36,350 nucleotides of DNA, taken from positions 1 to 36,350 of the forward strand of contig JAUSCR010000175.1 of NCBI GenBank assembly GCA_030651175.1, in the 5' to 3' direction. The notes beneath the pieces were generated by a model that saw only the letters and a program-made list of their open reading frames with translations, was not told where the DNA came from and did no database searches. Made by a program: the position numbers and the translations under genes. This document shows, piece after piece, positions 17,183 through 26,980 of the stretch (its first letter is position 1; each line of letters opens with the position of its first letter). The DNA is from Dehalococcoidia bacterium (GTDB taxonomy: Bacteria > Chloroflexota > Dehalococcoidia > Lucifugimonadales > SHYF01).

Positions 17183-18430
17183 CTAGCCCAGGTCTGAGAC
17201 CGTGCGGAAGATCAAGGAGGAGTTGTGCCCTCCGAACCCGAAGGCGTTGCTCATCACGGCACGAAGCTGCACCTGCCTGGCGACGTTGGGGGTATAGTCC
17301 AGGTCGCATTCCGGGTCAGGGCGCTCCAGGTTGATGGTAGGGGGGGCGATGCCTTTCTGGAGGGCCACCACGCTGATAGCTGCCTCCACGGCTGCGCCTG
17401 CACCAAGCAGGTGCCCGGTCATTGACTTGGTGGAGCTGATAGGGATGCGGTACGCGTGCTGGCCGAACACTGACTTGAGGGCCATTGTTTCAAACTTGTC
17501 GTTCAACGGCGTGGAGGTGCCGTGAGCGTTGATGTAGCTGATGTCTTGGGGCGATAGCCCCGCCGCTTTGAGCGACAGCCGCATGGCGCGCGCTGCGCCT
17601 TCGCCCTCCGGCGCCGGCTGCGTCACGTGAAAGGCATCTGAGCTGGCGCCGTACCCCACAAGCTCCGCCAGGACGTTCGCGTCCCTGCGGCGTACGCTCT
17701 CCAGGCTCTCCAGCACCAGGATGCCCGCGCCCTCGCCCATCACGAACCCATCTCTATCCGCATCGAAGGGCCGGCTGGCATGTTTCGGGTCGTCGTTGCG
17801 GCGGGATAGCGCCTGGCACGCGTTGAACCCCGCCACGGCTACGGGACAGATGGGTGCTTCGGCTCCTCCTGCGACGGCCACATCCACATCCCCCCGCCGG
17901 ATCATGTTCCACGCCTCGCCAATAGCTTCGGCGCCGCTGGAGCAGGAGGAGACTGTGCAAAAATTCGGCCCTTTGATGCCAAATGCCATGGAGACCTGCC
18001 CGGAAGCCATGTCGGCCAGCATCATTGGAATCAGGAAGGGGCTGACGCGCGTGGCGCCACGCTCCTTTAGCACTTGGAACTGCTCGGAGAGGGTGGTAAT
18101 TCCACCGATTCCGCTGCCGACGATGGCAGCCGCTCGAGTGGGGTCCATTTTCGCCAGGTCCAACTCGGCCTGCCACAACGCCTCCTGGACCGCCACCATG
18201 GCGAACTGGGCAAACCGGTCAAGATGCCGGGCCTTCTTCTTGTCTATGTACTCTGCGGGATCAAACCCCTTCACCTCCGCTGCGAAGCGAGTCTCAAACC
18301 CTTCGGTATCGAAGGCAGAAATGTGGTCAACGCCTGAGATGCCTTGGATGAGGCTGTTCCATGTGGAGGCGGTATCCAGGCCCAGGGGAGTTACCATCCC
18401 CACACCGGTAACAAATACGCGATTAGTCAC
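17183..18430 (-). CDS. fabF: 3-oxoacyl-[acyl-carrier-protein] synthase II
   Basis: 415 residues, the usual FabF length. It condenses malonyl-ACP with acyl-ACP in fatty acid elongation. The catalytic triad falls exactly at the E. coli FabF positions: C163 ('SSCSSGAEAIG'), H303 ('NAHGTSTPLND') and H340 ('SMTGHLLGAGAAVE'). 'FVTGVGMVTPLG' starts the thiolase fold and 'NAFGFGGHNSSLIF' ends it. The segment around the nucleophile is Ser-rich (SSCSS) where many members have TACA/TGT. GTG at 18430 is chosen, with GGGAGGAA 5 bases upstream. No acpP, fabD or fabG is adjacent, so it is separated from the usual fab cluster. Confidence 0.95.
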   Translation of the reverse strand: MTNRVFVTGVGMVTPLGLDTASTWNSLIQGISGVDHISAFDTEGFETRFAAEVKGFDPAEYIDKKKARHLDRFAQFAMVAVQEALWQAELDLAKMDPTRAAAIVGSGIGGITTLSEQFQVLKERGATRVSPFLIPMMLADMASGQVSMAFGIKGPNFCTVSSCSSGAEAIGEAWNMIRRGDVDVAVAGGAEAPICPVAVAGFNACQALSRRNDDPKHASRPFDADRDGFVMGEGAGILVLESLESVRRRDANVLAELVGYGASSDAFHVTQPAPEGEGAARAMRLSLKAAGLSPQDISYINAHGTSTPLNDKFETMALKSVFGQHAYRIPISSTKSMTGHLLGAGAAVEAAISVVALQKGIAPPTINLERPDPECDLDYTPNVARQVQLRAVMSNAFGFGGHNSSLIFRTVSDLG

Positions 18431-18539: not shown

Positions 18540-20594
18540 TCAACGGGACGGGGAGATTCCTGACCGCCTGGGAGGAGATAGGGTGTCCAGGCGGCCCTTG
18601 AAATCGTTCATGGCAACGGCGATGGAATCTCCCATCTCCCCCAGCTTTGTGGAAACGGACTCGCTCAACTCGCTTATGCGTGTGGAGAGAGAGCCCTCCA
18701 ATTCGCCCTTCCGGGAAGCTGCGGTCTCCATTAGCTCTGTCAGGCCCGTAGAAGCCGAAGCGCGCAACTCACCGAGCTTGACAGAAACCGACTTGCTCAA
18801 CTCATCAACCTTGGATGCCAGGGACACCTGCAACTCTTCCCTGGTAGTTGATAAAGAGGCCCGAATGTCACCAATCCTGCTGGATAGGGTGTCGCTCAAC
18901 TCATCCATTTTCACGGAGAGGGTCTCTTCCAGGTTGTTAACCCTGGCTGTGATGGCGTTTCTCATCTCCGCTGACCGGGACACGCCAGGAGCGGCCGTTT
19001 GGCCAAACCTGGCGGAGACAGAGTTTGAGAGATCTCTCAGGGAGGAGAACACCGATTCTTTGGTCTGTTGTAGGGTGGAGAAAACGGTTTCCTCCAGTTG
19101 CCCAATTCTAGGCTCTGCTAACTCCTTGGCAGGACTTATGGAGATGGGCGCCATGCTTTCCATGCGGCGCTGCTCAATCACCCCGTCATAGGCCCGGCTG
19201 CGGAACATTCGGAAGATCCGCTCATACATCTTGTCCACAGGATGGAGCTTGCTGGTGTATTTGGCATACACCTCTTGGGCCTCTTGCATGCCCCACCGCT
19301 TGTCCTGAAACATGAACTCCCGGCCTGTGTACAGGTGGTAGGGCCTCATCTTGCCCTCGGGCAGAAGGGAACCATCCTCGTCCAGTGGAACCAGATTCCA
19401 GTTCACAGTCGCTGGCAGCGGCGTGAGCCAGTTGGCCGTCTGATACCGGCTGACAGTCTTGACCCAGTCGGCCATCTCCATGATGCCAGCTTCGGTGTCG
19501 TATGGGAGGCCGATTATGGTCATAGCTGTGACTATGAACCCCATCTTGTTCAATGTCACCAGGTCGCGGTGCACCTGGGTGGGATCCTGGCGTTTCCTTA
19601 CAATTTTCAAGTTTTCGGCGCTGCTGGACTCCACGCCCAAGTACAACATCTCTATATTCGCTTGCCGCATGGCCTGAGCCAGCTCAGGGTCCTGCCCAAC
19701 CTCTGCGCGGGTCTGGCAGATCATCCACATGTCTTCGGAATGCCCGTTCCAGCTCTTGAGGCGGGCAAGCCGTTCGTCCCGGAACTTGGTGGCCCTTAGA
19801 GGTGGAGGATGCAGGTCGTCGGAGATAAACACGCTAAACCGCCCGTCCTTGGCTGTGTATATCTTGCCATCCTCCGCCAGCTTCTGTATCTGGGCCAAAC
19901 GGAGGAGCTCCGTCTCCCGCGAGACCATGCGATACCCCAGGAACTGCTGGATTACCTGGCAGAAGGTGCACTTCTCAGTGCAACCGCGAACTGTCTCCAA
20001 GACTCCCGCCGCCAGCGGATTGCGAGGCGTCAGGTCCCGCATGGAATCAAAGTCAGGCAACTGAACGTAGTCAGCAGGAATCAGGCCACGCTTTTCCGTG
20101 TGTACGAATTTCCCGCTGTCCAGGAAAGCGATGCCGGGAACCTTGTGGAGTTGGGCTGTGAGGTTCTGGCCCGTGTACTTGACCATTACGTCGCAAAGCT
20201 GGCCCACCACGTCCTCGCCCTCCCGTATAACCACAACGTCCACTTTGCCGTAACGCAGGGCCTCTTCCGCCAGCGGGCTCATGTGAGGGCCGCCGCCTAT
20301 GATCTTGAGGTCGGGTTGGTGTTCTCGGGCCGCACGCGTTATCTCGTAGGCTCTGGGCGCTTCGTTGATGAGGGCGGTAACCATGAGGATGTCAACGTCA
20401 TCCAGGTCTTTCCCTGGGTCTATGTTCCCGTTGCGGTCCTCGTACCAGATATCGCGGTCGTAGAGGAACTCGCCCTGCCACTGCTTGAGAGCGCCGGAGA
20501 TATACAGGGGCCCCTGCCTGGGAATAGCCACGTACTCAAAGTTGCCGCCGGTGGACTTGGGGGCCACCAGCATTACGTTTCTTGTTCGGGACAC
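18540..20594 (-). CDS. B12-binding-fold radical SAM protein with a C-terminal hendecad-repeat tail
   Basis: About 684 residues if started at the GTG at 20594 (AAAGGA 8 bases upstream); an upstream GTG at 20684 would add 30. The N-terminal domain looks like a cobalamin-binding Rossmann fold ('RNVMLVAPKS', 'LKIIGGGPH', 'VVVIREGE'), though no DxHxxG motif is seen. The radical SAM core follows with C205-x3-C209-x2-C212 ('RGCTEKCTFCQ') binding the 4Fe-4S cluster. 'MLYLGVESS' and 'TIIGLPYDT' are typical later strands. From about residue 497 to 672, sixteen consecutive 11-residue units run without a break, for example MDELSDTLSSR, VDELSKSVSVK and ISELSESVSTK. Such hendecads form right-handed coiled coils or amphipathic membrane-binding helices. 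The substrate is unknown. Confidence 0.88.
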   Translation of the reverse strand: MSRTRNVMLVAPKSTGGNFEYVAIPRQGPLYISGALKQWQGEFLYDRDIWYEDRNGNIDPGKDLDDVDILMVTALINEAPRAYEITRAAREHQPDLKIIGGGPHMSPLAEEALRYGKVDVVVIREGEDVVGQLCDVMVKYTGQNLTAQLHKVPGIAFLDSGKFVHTEKRGLIPADYVQLPDFDSMRDLTPRNPLAAGVLETVRGCTEKCTFCQVIQQFLGYRMVSRETELLRLAQIQKLAEDGKIYTAKDGRFSVFISDDLHPPPLRATKFRDERLARLKSWNGHSEDMWMICQTRAEVGQDPELAQAMRQANIEMLYLGVESSSAENLKIVRKRQDPTQVHRDLVTLNKMGFIVTAMTIIGLPYDTEAGIMEMADWVKTVSRYQTANWLTPLPATVNWNLVPLDEDGSLLPEGKMRPYHLYTGREFMFQDKRWGMQEAQEVYAKYTSKLHPVDKMYERIFRMFRSRAYDGVIEQRRMESMAPISISPAKELAEPRIGQLEETVFSTLQQTKESVFSSLRDLSNSVSARFGQTAAPGVSRSAEMRNAITARVNNLEETLSVKMDELSDTLSSRIGDIRASLSTTREELQVSLASKVDELSKSVSVKLGELRASASTGLTELMETAASRKGELEGSLSTRISELSESVSTKLGEMGDSIAVAMNDFKGRLDTLSPPRRSGISPSR

Positions 20595-20758
20595 TGGATT
20601 TTCCTTTTGGGAGTTCCGTACCAGGTATGCCAGTCGTAGGTAGGAGATGTTCCTGGCGTTCGGTAGAGATAGCGCATTATACACCTAAGCGGCAAGAAAA
20701 TGGAATAAATACGGCTAGCAGCTAGCCGTTAGCTTGGCATAAGGTGGAACTCAGGAAC

Positions 20759-22376: not shown

Positions 22377-22517
22377 ACCATCCCCCTGACCCCCTTCCTG
22401 GCCAGGAAGGGGGTGGAGAAAAATACTGGGGGTGTCCCCCAGTGCCCCCGCCAAAGGGGCTTTGCCCCTCTGGACTCCCCTTTTTGGGCGGACTGCTGGC
22501 ACCTGGCCTGCTAGCCG
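22377..22517. repeat. Palindromic repeat, family C copy 4
   Basis: Contains CCCCCTTCCTGGCCAGGAAG-type palindrome, CTGGGGGTGTCCCCCAG and AGGGGCTTTGCCCCT, the same modules as at 10.7, 12.7, 14.1 and 29.0 kb. It ends near GGCCTGCTAGCC at about 22505-22516, similar to the CAGCCTGCTAG end of copy 1. It lies between the convergent MFS and recombinase genes and touches the latter's 3' end. Confidence 0.65.
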
Positions 22518-23911
22518 GTGATGCCCTGGCGCACCACGACTTTCGCCTCGCCGTCGCCAACTACGATGCGCTGCACCCATAGCTGTAGCAGTTGCTGTTG
22601 GATCTCCGGCCCCAGCTTCTCCCAGCGGGCGGTGTCCAGGATGGCGCTCCCGTCCGCCGCCTCGTCCGGCCCGGATGGTGCGAGGCCATGTCCCATGCCC
22701 TGCTCCTGTCCCGGCGAAGAGGGGCCAAGCTCGCTGAGAAGAGATCGCAGGCGACGGAGCGGGATAGCGCCGTCGGCGGCCTGCCGCAGGTATTTCAGGT
22801 AAAGTCGCCTCTGGCGTATTTGACTCCGCTGGTTATCGGCAGAAGTTGCGCTGTCCGGCGCTTCCTGCTGGCGTGGAGGTAGCGTTGCGGTGACCTGAAG
22901 CTGCTGGCGAAGCTGGTTAAGCACCGCCTCCTCCAGCAATGGGGCACGCCAGGTGTGGTACGTGCATACGCTCTGGTTAATGCGGGAGTGGCACTGATAG
23001 TAACGGTAGACGCCCTGCACGCGCTGGCCGTCCTTCCTCCTCCATGACTGGCGGCGTGTGACCCCGGCCATTCGGTTCCCGCACTGGGCGCAGTAGGCCA
23101 AGCCGGACAAAAGGAATGGCTGCACCAGCCCCTTGTGTCGGTTGGGGGTGCGGGCCTGCATCAGGTCATGGACTCGGCGGAAAGCCTCCGGAGTCACCAG
23201 GGGTGGATGGTTTCTGGGCACACGCAGTCCAAACCGTTGGTATGTGCCTGTGTACGAGCGATTTCGGAGAATGTCACGGATGGTGACAAGACTCCAGTTG
23301 CCGCCACGTCGGGTATGTAAACCTTCCTGGTTCAGGTGGCGCGCTATGTTGCGCAACCCCAGGTCTTGCTCCAGGTACAGGCGGTAGATAAGGCGCACCA
23401 CCTCCGCCTCCTGAGTCACCTCCTCCAGCTTCTTCCCATTTCCGATGCGATAGCCATAGGGTGGTTTCCCCAGTCCTTCGCCTCGGATAGCTTTGGATTG
23501 CATGGCATCCAGGATGCGCTGGCGGCGTTCCGCCCCCGGCCCGGTCGCTTGCAGGGTGCGGGCCACGGCCTGGAAAGCATCGGGTTGTCCCTGCATTGTG
23601 GAGGCCACTCGGAAGCCAAGGGCATCAATGGCCAGGACGGTCTCCAGAGCCTCCTCAGGGGTGGAACCCAGGTGAGATGGGTTCGTAACCAGGACCAGAA
23701 AGGTGCCGCGCTGCTCCCTGAGGTGCTGAAGCAACCTGCCGAGCGCCGGGCGGCCTCCCTGGGCGTTGCTGCTGGATTCCGGGAAGGTGTCGGAAAGGGT
23801 GTGGCCCTCCCGCTGGCAGAATTGGGAAAGCTGTCTTTGCTGGCTCGCTCGGGAGGCTGGCAAGCCTGGAGGCGCTTCCGGGTCGAACTGAAAGTAACCC
23901 AGGGCTCGCAT
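22511..23911 (-). CDS. Serine-recombinase family protein with a degenerate catalytic domain
   Basis: 466 residues in large serine recombinase order: resolvase-like N-terminal domain (~1-140), recombinase domain (~145-260, 'GKPPYGYRIGNGK', 'GGNWSLVTIRDILRNRSYTG') and a zinc-ribbon domain ('LLSGLAYCAQCGNRM' and 'YYQCHSR...VCTYH', ~270-320). A C-terminal helical region follows. The catalytic start that normally reads Y-x-R-V-S is here 'YFQFDPE', so the nucleophilic Ser and its Arg are missing. The usual D-R-L-S/A-R motif reads 'NPSHLGS'. The fold-level pattern ('RQLSQFCQREGH', 'RPALGRLLQHL', 'LVLV') remains. This suggests a DNA-binding protein that no longer recombines. It follows the zinc-ribbon protein gene by 3 bases, so the two probably form one transcript. 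Confidence 0.82.
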   Translation of the reverse strand: MRALGYFQFDPEAPPGLPASRASQQRQLSQFCQREGHTLSDTFPESSSNAQGGRPALGRLLQHLREQRGTFLVLVTNPSHLGSTPEEALETVLAIDALGFRVASTMQGQPDAFQAVARTLQATGPGAERRQRILDAMQSKAIRGEGLGKPPYGYRIGNGKKLEEVTQEAEVVRLIYRLYLEQDLGLRNIARHLNQEGLHTRRGGNWSLVTIRDILRNRSYTGTYQRFGLRVPRNHPPLVTPEAFRRVHDLMQARTPNRHKGLVQPFLLSGLAYCAQCGNRMAGVTRRQSWRRKDGQRVQGVYRYYQCHSRINQSVCTYHTWRAPLLEEAVLNQLRQQLQVTATLPPRQQEAPDSATSADNQRSQIRQRRLYLKYLRQAADGAIPLRRLRSLLSELGPSSPGQEQGMGHGLAPSGPDEAADGSAILDTARWEKLGPEIQQQLLQLWVQRIVVGDGEAKVVVRQGITG

Positions 23912-23914
23912 AGG

Positions 23915-24655
23915 TTAGCCCGCGTACAGGATGCGGCCGCAGCTACTGCAAGTGACTGGTTCTTGAGAAGTCCGTACTCGTTGTAGCTCGCTGTTCGGTA
24001 ACGTGAGGCGGCAGCCCATGCACATTCCGCGTTCTACCTTCGCCAAGGCCACTCCCTGGCGGGCCTTCCGCACCTGTTCGTACTGGGCTAGAAGGGCAGG
24101 GGCGATGCCCACTGTCACTTGGTGACGATTTGCCGATAGAGCCTGCAACCGCTGGGTCAGGGTGGCCTGCTCTTTGGCCAATGTGGCGATGGTGTCAGCC
24201 CGCGTCTTCTCCGTTTGCTCAAGGTCAGTGCGCGACGTGGCCAGCCCTGCCTCGGCCTCGTCCAGGGCCAGCATTAGGTTCAGCAGCTTTTCCTCCTCCT
24301 CGCTCGCCTGGGACTTGGCAAACTGGAGTTCGGCATGAAGGGCCTCCAGCTCTTTAGCGTTTCGGATAGAGCCTCCGTAGAGCCGTTGGTCAAGGCCCTT
24401 TGCCTTGTCCTGTAGCTCCTGGACTCCCTGGGACTGACTGGCGTGCTGTTTTCGGAGTTGAAGCGCCATCGCCTCTCTTTCGGATAGGTCGGCCCTAGCC
24501 TTCACCACGGCGCTGTCGTCCGCAAGGCGCGCTTCCACCGACGCGAGGTCGGTCTGATAGCGGCCAATTTGTAAGTCCAGTTCCTGTAGGTCGAAAAGTT
24601 GACGAAGGTTTGCCAGGGGTGCCACCTCGTTTACAGCATTGAGTCTCAGGAGCAT
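23915..24655 (-). CDS. C4-type zinc-ribbon coiled-coil protein (CT398/zf-RING_7 family)
   Basis: 246 residues from the ATG at 24655 (an upstream extension to 24712 is possible). Most of the protein is a long antiparallel-type coiled coil ('LQELDLQIGRYQTDLASVE' onward). The C-terminus is a zinc ribbon with 'RGMCMGCRLTLP' and 'VTCSSCGRILY', four cysteines in two CxxC pairs. This matches the widespread CT398-like family, of which the role is uncertain. Family members have been linked to flagellar, secretion or RNA-related systems in different taxa. It precedes the recombinase-like gene by 3 bases, an operon arrangement. Confidence 0.87.
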   Translation of the reverse strand: MLLRLNAVNEVAPLANLRQLFDLQELDLQIGRYQTDLASVEARLADDSAVVKARADLSEREAMALQLRKQHASQSQGVQELQDKAKGLDQRLYGGSIRNAKELEALHAELQFAKSQASEEEEKLLNLMLALDEAEAGLATSRTDLEQTEKTRADTIATLAKEQATLTQRLQALSANRHQVTVGIAPALLAQYEQVRKARQGVALAKVERGMCMGCRLTLPNSELQRVRTSQEPVTCSSCGRILYAG

Positions 24656-24700
24656 CCTAGACAGGGGTGGGAACCTTGTCAAGGAACAGGGCGGTCTCTC

Positions 24701-24758
24701 GTAGGGGCGCAAGGCTCCGACGGAAGTCCCGCACGGAGTCGGGACCTTGCGCCCCTAC
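24701..24758. repeat. Inverted repeat with 14-base arms at the end of the glycerophosphodiesterase gene
   Basis: GTAGGGGCGCAAGG (24701-24714) and CCTTGCGCCCCTAC (24745-24758) are perfect arms around a GGCTCCGACGG/ACGGAGTC-containing loop. The right arm contains the TAG stop of the minus-strand glycerophosphodiesterase gene (24755-24757). Could act as terminator. Looks like another mobile palindrome family. Confidence 0.75.
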
Positions 24759-25681: not shown

Positions 25682-26980
25682 ATGTATCTCTGGAAAGTAG
25701 TTCTTGGGATTATGATTACCGTTGCTGTTCTTTCACTGACCTATGGAGTAGCTAACAAGATTAACGGACTGCAACAGCGACTAACGTTAACTGAGGGCAT
25801 ACTAGAAGGCAAGGTGGGGGACATTAGGGCATTGCAAGCAACTTTGGATGGCAAGAATCTCCAGATTGGACAGCTTGAGGTGTCAGAAGCGGGGCTTAAG
25901 GAGCAACTAGGTGCACTGCAGGTAAAGCATACGACTCTCTTGCAAGAGAAGGCTGATCTGGAGGTCACAGCCCTGGGCCTAAAGACGCTATCACTAGACT
26001 TGCAAGAAAAACTGGTCTCCAAGGGAAAGGAATATGATGCCTTACAAGGGACTTATGGCGTCCTCTCAACCGCAAATAAGGCACTGCAGGTAGAGCATAC
26101 TACTCTCTTGCAAGAGAAGGCTGGTCTGGAGGTAACGGTTCTGGGACTAAAGACCATATCACTAGACTTGCAAGGAAAACTGGACTCCAAGGGAAAGGAA
26201 TATGATGTCTTGTCCTCTGCAGTCGGAACTTTGGAAGGAGTAAAGTCCCAAGTAAGTGGGCTTCAGCAACAAGTGCAGTCTCTGAACGGGGATATAGCAC
26301 GCTTGCAGGCTGCAAGAGCTCCCCTAATTGTAGAGTCCAACAGAGGCTCCTTTGCTTGCACTGGGAGTATGGAGCCGAAGATTACCTGTCTTGACGAAGC
26401 TACTTGGCTGTCTAACTTCCGACCGCAAGAAGTAATAGTAGGAACAGTCGTCTCCTTTACTCCCACTGCAGAGTGTAAGCTGTCGAGTACTCGTGTAGCG
26501 CATAGAGTTACGACAATAAGGGTAGAAGCAGGGACTATCTACTACCGGACGAAAGGTGATGCCAATTCTAGTGACGATGGCTGCTGGATACCTAGTTCCA
26601 GCGTAAATGGCTACATCATAACCCTCTACAAGAATACCAAGTTAGAGAATGCTCCTATAAGAGATAGAATCAATGCCTTGAAGGTAACTATGGACTGGGC
26701 TGAGGCTGCCTATGATGCAGCTCATCAAATCTATGAACAAAAGAAGGTGTCTTACGACTTGAAGTTGGCCGCCTACCAGACCTATGTAACACTTTACTGC
26801 CCAGGTAATACCTGTCCTGTCCAGTATTATTCTACCGCCAAGAGCTTGTTCGATGAACTAGAAACACTTCGATTAGCTGTAACTGCGGCTTCTATAGCAA
26901 ATAATACAGGCTTGGCCCAGTACAATACAGCCTACAATAGTTACTGGGCAGCGATAGAGGCGGAAAGAAGCAGGTTGTAA
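25682..26980 (+). CDS. Membrane-anchored coiled coil carrying a SipW-type signal-peptidase-like domain
   Basis: 432 residues. One N-terminal transmembrane segment (~5-25, 'VVLGIMITVAVLSLTYGVA') is followed by about 180 residues of coiled coil with an internal 56-residue duplication. A domain resembling S26B/SipW signal peptidase then starts near residue 220. The 'TGSMEP' motif places the nucleophile at S229, 'RVAHRVT' gives H274 (SipW-type enzymes use His instead of Lys), and 'TKGDANSSDDG' gives D293. A second helical region (~325-432) closes the protein. Known S26B enzymes have their membrane anchors directly beside the catalytic domain; here the domain is held off the membrane by a stalk. 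GC content is visibly lower than in neighbours. The proteolytic role is inferred from the motifs. A 48-residue miniprotein gene follows 44 bases downstream. Confidence 0.75.
   Translation: MYLWKVVLGIMITVAVLSLTYGVANKINGLQQRLTLTEGILEGKVGDIRALQATLDGKNLQIGQLEVSEAGLKEQLGALQVKHTTLLQEKADLEVTALGLKTLSLDLQEKLVSKGKEYDALQGTYGVLSTANKALQVEHTTLLQEKAGLEVTVLGLKTISLDLQGKLDSKGKEYDVLSSAVGTLEGVKSQVSGLQQQVQSLNGDIARLQAARAPLIVESNRGSFACTGSMEPKITCLDEATWLSNFRPQEVIVGTVVSFTPTAECKLSSTRVAHRVTTIRVEAGTIYYRTKGDANSSDDGCWIPSSSVNGYIITLYKNTKLENAPIRDRINALKVTMDWAEAAYDAAHQIYEQKKVSYDLKLAAYQTYVTLYCPGNTCPVQYYSTAKSLFDELETLRLAVTAASIANNTGLAQYNTAYNSYWAAIEAERSRL
25916..26206 (+). repeat. 168-base internal direct duplication
   Basis: Two copies start at 25916 and 26084, both with CTGCAGGTA and the CTCTCTTGCAAGAGAAGGCT block, and share about 120 highly similar bases each (period 168 bases, 56 codons). 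The protein repeat is 'HTTLLQEKA..LEVT.LGLKT.SLDLQ' ending 'SKGKEYD'. High nucleotide identity suggests a recent duplication that lengthened the coiled-coil stalk. Confidence 0.85.

Follow-up and report, generated by a model that had tools for sequence, protein, structure and literature searches.

A probable four-unit, apolipoprotein-like helical tail on a cobalamin-dependent radical SAM enzyme of Dehalococcoidia

The DNA analyzed here (the window) is a stretch of 36,350 nucleotides from a Dehalococcoidia bacterium of the order Lucifugimonadales (assembly GCA_030651175.1, contig JAUSCR010000175.1). It contains a gene for a B12-binding radical SAM protein with a long, repetitive C-terminal tail, with fabF as the next gene downstream (Table 1). 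The gene probably starts at the GTG at 20594, since the corresponding codon of the congener L066 is ATG and the bases upstream are rich in A and G; this start gives a protein of 684 amino acids. Elsewhere in the window, a 432-residue open reading frame at 25682-26980 (+) combines a coiled-coil-like stretch with a signal-peptidase-like stretch (TIGR02228, 41.4 bits against a cut-off of 51.85). In addition, a gene for a large serine recombinase (PF07508, PF00239) at 22511-24712 (-) adjoins one for a CT398-like coiled-coil and zinc-ribbon protein.

Table 1. Features of the tailed radical SAM locus and the evidence for each.
Feature	Position	Strand	Basis
Full ORF of tailed radical SAM protein, from first possible start	18540-20684	-	714 codons
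Tailed B12-binding radical SAM protein gene	18540..20594	-	684 aa from GTG start
B12-binding domain, ORF residues 96-160	20205..20399	-	PF02310, 44.2 bits vs cut-off 32.1
Radical SAM domain, ORF residues 230-408	19461..19997	-	PF04055, 53.1 bits vs cut-off 29.5
Cluster-binding motif CTEKCTFC (CxxxCxxC), ORF residues 235-242	19959..19982	-	Sequence
Tail of sixteen hendecads, ORF residues 527-702	18579..19106	-	Translation, lag and period analysis
44-residue unit 1 (residues 527-570), Pro-Gly break at end	18975..19106	-	Lag-44 similarity; predicted helix and break
44-residue unit 2 (residues 571-614)	18843..18974	-	Model, lag 44, unit stacking
44-residue unit 3 (residues 615-658)	18711..18842	-	Model, lag 44, unit stacking
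44-residue unit 4 (residues 659-702)	18579..18710	-	Model, lag 44, unit stacking
fabF, beta-ketoacyl-ACP synthase II; next gene downstream of enzyme	17183..18430	-	TIGR03150, 622.4 bits vs cut-off 493.75

As judged from its sequence domains, this Dehalococcoidia protein is a cobalamin-dependent radical SAM enzyme. An N-terminal B12-binding domain precedes a radical SAM domain with the CxxxCxxC motif, the three cysteines of which are invariant across 39 orthologues. An AlphaFold2 model built on these orthologues matches the solved enzymes AprD4 (Z 26.9), CysS (25.5), and MgmA (24.9). None of the NCBIfam profiles compared with the protein reached its family cut-off.

The tail splits into sixteen 11-residue units, as claimed in a preliminary description of this DNA, its coordinates translating on the minus strand to the residues given in Table 1. 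Residue identity within the tail is highest at lags of 11 (0.242) and 22 (0.234), the remaining lags up to 24 giving values of 0.025-0.119. Hydrophobic power in the tail is greatest at a period of 3.66 (power 22.3), compared with maxima of only 5.0 and 7.3, at other periods, for two segments of the core. When all 214 residues past the core are considered, the 11/3 period has a power of 21.1 and the 7/2 period one of 0.8; the maximum was not reached in any of 200 shuffles. These values rule out a relaxed heptad spacing, which had been named as the outcome that would speak against hendecads. The residues that characterize the hendecad (L/I/V/M at position 1, E at 3, L at 4, S at 7, L/V at 8, S at 9, and R/K at 11) agree with the consensus proposed earlier, and positions 1, 4, and 8 are hydrophobic in 42 of 48 cases. 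A period near 3.67 with hydrophobic a, d, and h positions is that of hendecad coiled coils. The array had also been called uninterrupted, which holds for its spacing but not for its pattern, as hendecad 4 (FGQTAAPGVSR) contains Pro-Gly and has no hydrophobic residue at position 4 or 8. Tandem Repeats Finder detected no tandem DNA repeat inside 18579-19106, and the repeat is therefore visible at the protein level only.

The tail is probably organized as four 44-residue units, each of four hendecads, rather than as one rod of sixteen. A lag of 44 is the strongest in the tail of the congener L066 (z 10.5); in the window's own tail, a lag of 22 is strongest (10.4), with 8.8 at lag 44. The AlphaFold model contains four tail helices, at model residues 488-531, 539-580, 585-626, and 632-671 (add 30 for ORF numbering), in which block-mean pLDDT is mostly 82-92 and drops at the breaks. 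Five single-chain four-helix designs (5vjs, 6z0c, 5vju, 8d9o, and 8d9p) match model residues 485-676 in alignments of 182-185 residues, at Z 15.4-15.9 and rmsd 5.4-6.2; scores below about 13 may mean little when helical bundles are compared, and these matches exceed 13 at high rmsd. The four helices are predicted to pack against each other in a soluble bundle. When single chains are modelled, amphipathic repeats tend to be folded back onto themselves. An alignment of eight long tails contains 22 internal prolines at 13 distinct positions; 16 of the prolines, and 9 of the positions, fall within four residues of predicted loops, compared with 23% expected. This agreement is support rather than proof, as the aligned rows are related and were included in the model's alignment. 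The hendecad array of the preliminary description is thus probably better described as four helical units of 44 residues, favored by the model, the lag of 44, and the units of relatives. The architecture as a whole, a four-unit helical tail on a B12 radical SAM core, is fairly well supported.

Matches in further genomes rule out that the tail is an oddity of one genome. With a threshold of E 1e-60, the core was matched in 64 of the 250 genomes searched in the order. In a sample of the class, there were matches in 13 of 393 genomes, three of which (the window's own included) belong to the order and one of which is a distant outgroup (G321/L137). The single match among 400 genomes sampled across the phylum was the window's own. 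We examined 73 loci, namely the window and 72 others, leaving out G225, which is cut by a contig end; 71 are informative once the outgroup L137 and L074, also cut by a contig end, are set aside. Tails of 56-216 residues past the core are present in 63 loci, comprising all 62 informative loci in the order and L128, which is labelled as the same class. The eight other class members (L129-L136) have only 11-21 residues past the core. With regard to its constancy, then, the tail is retained in close orthologues, though with variable length, while tail-less orthologues occur in other lineages of the class; its loss from all close orthologues, the other outcome that had been named against the proposal, did not appear. 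A single change of the tail label suffices on a tree built from 39 core sequences, the separating branch being poorly supported (10). A dominant period of 3.3-4.0 was detected at p <=0.05 against 200 shuffles in 53 of the 63 tails; it was absent at this threshold from L069, L079, L081, L082, L084, L097, L098, L107, L113, and L128. Two further loci deserve mention. At L127:3116-4279 (-) (G184), the enzyme reading frame has an in-frame TGA, and the tail portion is retained. L022 (G006:C1:3123237-3123689) is a 359-residue open frame that matches the tail only (22% identity, E 6e-4) and may perhaps encode a stand-alone helical repeat protein.

Sequence comparison shows that relatives keep four units while unit length shifts to 26 or 29 residues. 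The 47 tails of family f41 have their strongest identity lag at 29, and 29 of these tails have pairs of prolines 29 or 58 residues apart. When units are stacked, L118 and L125 each yield four of 29 and L072 four of 26. L102 also gives four of 26 when stacked by eye, with an automatic estimate of 3.3 copies. The exception is f14, the tails of which are short, with about three units (in L098, approximately three of 18 residues). In addition, L070 appears to lack most of unit 1 in the alignment of long tails. Among eight tails compared unit by unit, those of f41 share 53-69% identity with their counterparts in another f41 genome and 31-33% with non-matching units. For L072, the units are 44% identical among themselves and at most 25% identical to units of any other lineage tested, so at least one lineage acquired four units by its own amplification. 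A second model, of f41 (L118 and 42 others), also has four tail helices (485-512, 518-537, 541-561, and 569-602), though block-mean pLDDT is as low as 39-75. Comparison of the f41 model with known structures listed no helical bundle, which, given the low confidence of its tail, is no sign of a different fold. This recurrence of four units with changing unit length is the most unexpected part of the analysis.

Comparison with the congener L066 indicates that the tail evolves faster than the core, yet under constraint. Identity is 93.6% in the core and 80.1% in the tail, with dN and dS of 0.033 and 0.382 for the core and 0.108 and 0.577 for the tail. All 42 hydrophobic residues at hendecad positions 1, 4, and 8 are still hydrophobic in the congener, and 94% of residues at positions 7 and 9, mostly serine, are kept. 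Variation is greatest at outward positions, among them 5, 10, and 11.

Several properties of the tail recall lipid-binding proteins. Its best Pfam match is the apolipoprotein family PF01442 (E 2.9e-15), and its best sequence matches in the PDB are apoA-IV and apoA-I. Like PF01442 proteins, it has tandem amphipathic helices, 11-residue periodicity, and proline or glycine breaks. By Pfam score, however, the tail does not qualify for PF01442, with 56.9 bits against a gathering cut-off of 90, which is reached neither by the whole protein (52.5) nor by the best relative (L067, 69.5). Its composition is 36% hydrophobic, 2% aromatic, and 26% charged, with a net charge of -6. Its hydrophobic moment, calculated for the whole tail and not with Heliquest, is 0.33; Table 1 of PMC5889406 prints 0.39, 0.30, 0.35, and 0.257 for apolipoprotein A-I, alpha-synuclein, Plin3, and Plin4, respectively. 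The amphipathicity falls in the range given there for lipid-binding 11-mer helices, which the tail also resembles in composition, and the apolipoprotein-like character put forward in the preliminary description is upheld as a resemblance. Moment and composition would permit lipid binding; as a test, they could not tell lipid-binding from coiled-coil helices.

The genetic neighborhood offers a possible link to lipids, in line with the lipid substrate hinted at in the preliminary description. Among tailed-type loci with room of 1,500 bases or more, a same-strand fabF follows the enzyme gene in 61 of 62, and RecJ is encoded further downstream in 49 of the 56 that have 4,000 bases. Half of the eight tail-less loci also have fabF downstream, and the other half do not. 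A FabF orthologue is present in all 18 chosen genomes of the order without an enzyme match (56-67% identity), adjoining RecJ in 16 of them. FabF as a gene dedicated to the enzyme is therefore ruled out, FabF-RecJ being a general neighborhood that hosts the enzyme, and the link to fatty acids is suggestive only. A connection of the enzyme to acyl chemistry is plausible, not specific. The window's genome encodes a second FabF (50% identity) on a different contig. The sole tailed locus with room but no downstream fabF, L072 (G024), is also the one with freshly amplified 26-residue units, and has a trypsin-PDZ protease gene upstream. A gene for a luciferase-like monooxygenase (PF00296) lies just upstream of the enzyme gene at L076:5562-6560 (+) and in relatives; members of its sequence cluster are found in 41 of the 73 loci, with 39 of the 41 copies on the same strand.

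Our best explanation, held tentatively, is that the tail is an amphitropic, apolipoprotein-like four-helix module through which a B12 radical SAM enzyme reaches lipid or acyl substrates. Exchangeable apolipoproteins are closed in solution and meet lipid surfaces through hydrophobic stripes. By analogy, the tail would form a closed helical bundle in solution, which would open on, or dock to, a membrane or lipid surface through its own hydrophobic stripes. In this way a lipid or acyl chain made with the neighboring FabF pathway could undergo radical chemistry at an unactivated carbon (methylation, cyclisation, or coupling), a step we infer from the fabF neighbor and the general chemistry of B12 radical SAM enzymes. 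Some observations run against the lipid reading: the net negative charge is unfavorable for anionic membranes, the hydrophobic stripe is narrow, as in coiled coils, the PF01442 score is below cut-off, the f41 tail model has low confidence and no listed bundle match, FabF is a general protein that also occurs without the enzyme, and half of the tail-less orthologues lack a downstream fabF. The f14 tails of about three units and the apparent loss of unit 1 in L070 count against a four-helix reading.

The tail might instead be an oligomerisation or scaffold domain with no lipid role, in which hendecads from different chains associate, either in a coiled coil (right-handed or straight) or in a bundle between chains. 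Hendecad coiled coils have a hydrophobic a-d-h stripe, which the hydrophobic positions 1, 4, and 8 match, and the narrowness of this stripe, its polar, serine-rich flanks, and its conservation would be explained. We nevertheless consider this somewhat unlikely, as the unit breaks and the f41 prolines exactly 29 residues apart are ill-suited to a continuous rod, and four units of changing length fit an intramolecular bundle better. Less probable still is that the tail serves, instead of binding lipid, as a lid or as a docking site for protein, whether FabF, acyl carrier protein, or the active site of the enzyme itself. While the conserved fabF adjacency is in keeping with such a role and a helical bundle is able to offer a binding face, the tail is not needed for a link that four of the eight tail-less orthologues share, and its outward positions are the most variable. 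A low-complexity extension that drifts neutrally and has no function itself, to which the faster divergence, variable length, and absence from other class members might point, is very improbable, already being disfavored by a substitution pattern in which the hydrophobic positions are kept and dN is well below dS, and by the presence of the tail in every informative member of the order.

The amphitropic reading can be taken further, though this fuller version is rather doubtful. The tail would be a bacterial apolipoprotein-like exchangeable module of four helices, built into a B12 radical enzyme as its lipid anchor or gate, and the enzyme would modify acyl chains in an uncultured Dehalococcoidia lineage, with helix length changed by whole turns and at least one lineage re-amplified to four units. 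If true, an unassigned radical SAM family present in about a quarter of the genomes surveyed in the order would provide a handle for seeking a modified acyl lipid. With their units of 26, 29, or 44 residues on a shared enzyme core, the helical modules form a natural series for studying how helix length and number set membrane association. The tail would also be a bacterial parallel to apolipoproteins, CCT-alpha, and viperin.

A literature search of titles and the starts of abstracts found no description of such a tail on any radical SAM enzyme. The solved enzymes AprD4, CysS, MgmA, OxsB, and TsrM share the B12-binding and radical SAM domains and CxxxCxxC with this protein (model Z 23-27); the four long helical repeats are extra here, and no NCBIfam cut-off is reached. 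HpnJ, HpnR, BchE, and the ladderane-linked TIGR04072 family, which are B12 radical SAM enzymes that act in lipid or pigment pathways, give partial profile matches here, scoring 59.1, 51, 74, and 27.9 bits, all far below the respective cut-offs of 577.6, 650, 481.35, and 360. The exchangeable apolipoproteins (apoA-I, apoA-IV, and apoE; PF01442) resemble the tail in their tandem amphipathic helices with an 11-residue period and, in f41, in proline punctuation. In contrast to these, the tail is bacterial, fused to an enzyme, and below the Pfam cut-off, and the likeness may be convergent. Viperin is not known to have a B12 domain. It is a radical SAM enzyme that, according to PMC9279394, an amphipathic helix targets to lipid droplets and the membrane of the ER; this helix is a short N-terminal extension, and the product of viperin is a nucleotide. 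Finally, CCT-alpha (phosphocholine cytidylyltransferase) is listed in Table 1 of PMC5889406 with a 59-residue amphipathic 11-mer-repeat helix that meets membranes and lipid droplets; it is a different enzyme, with one helix where the tail described here has four units.
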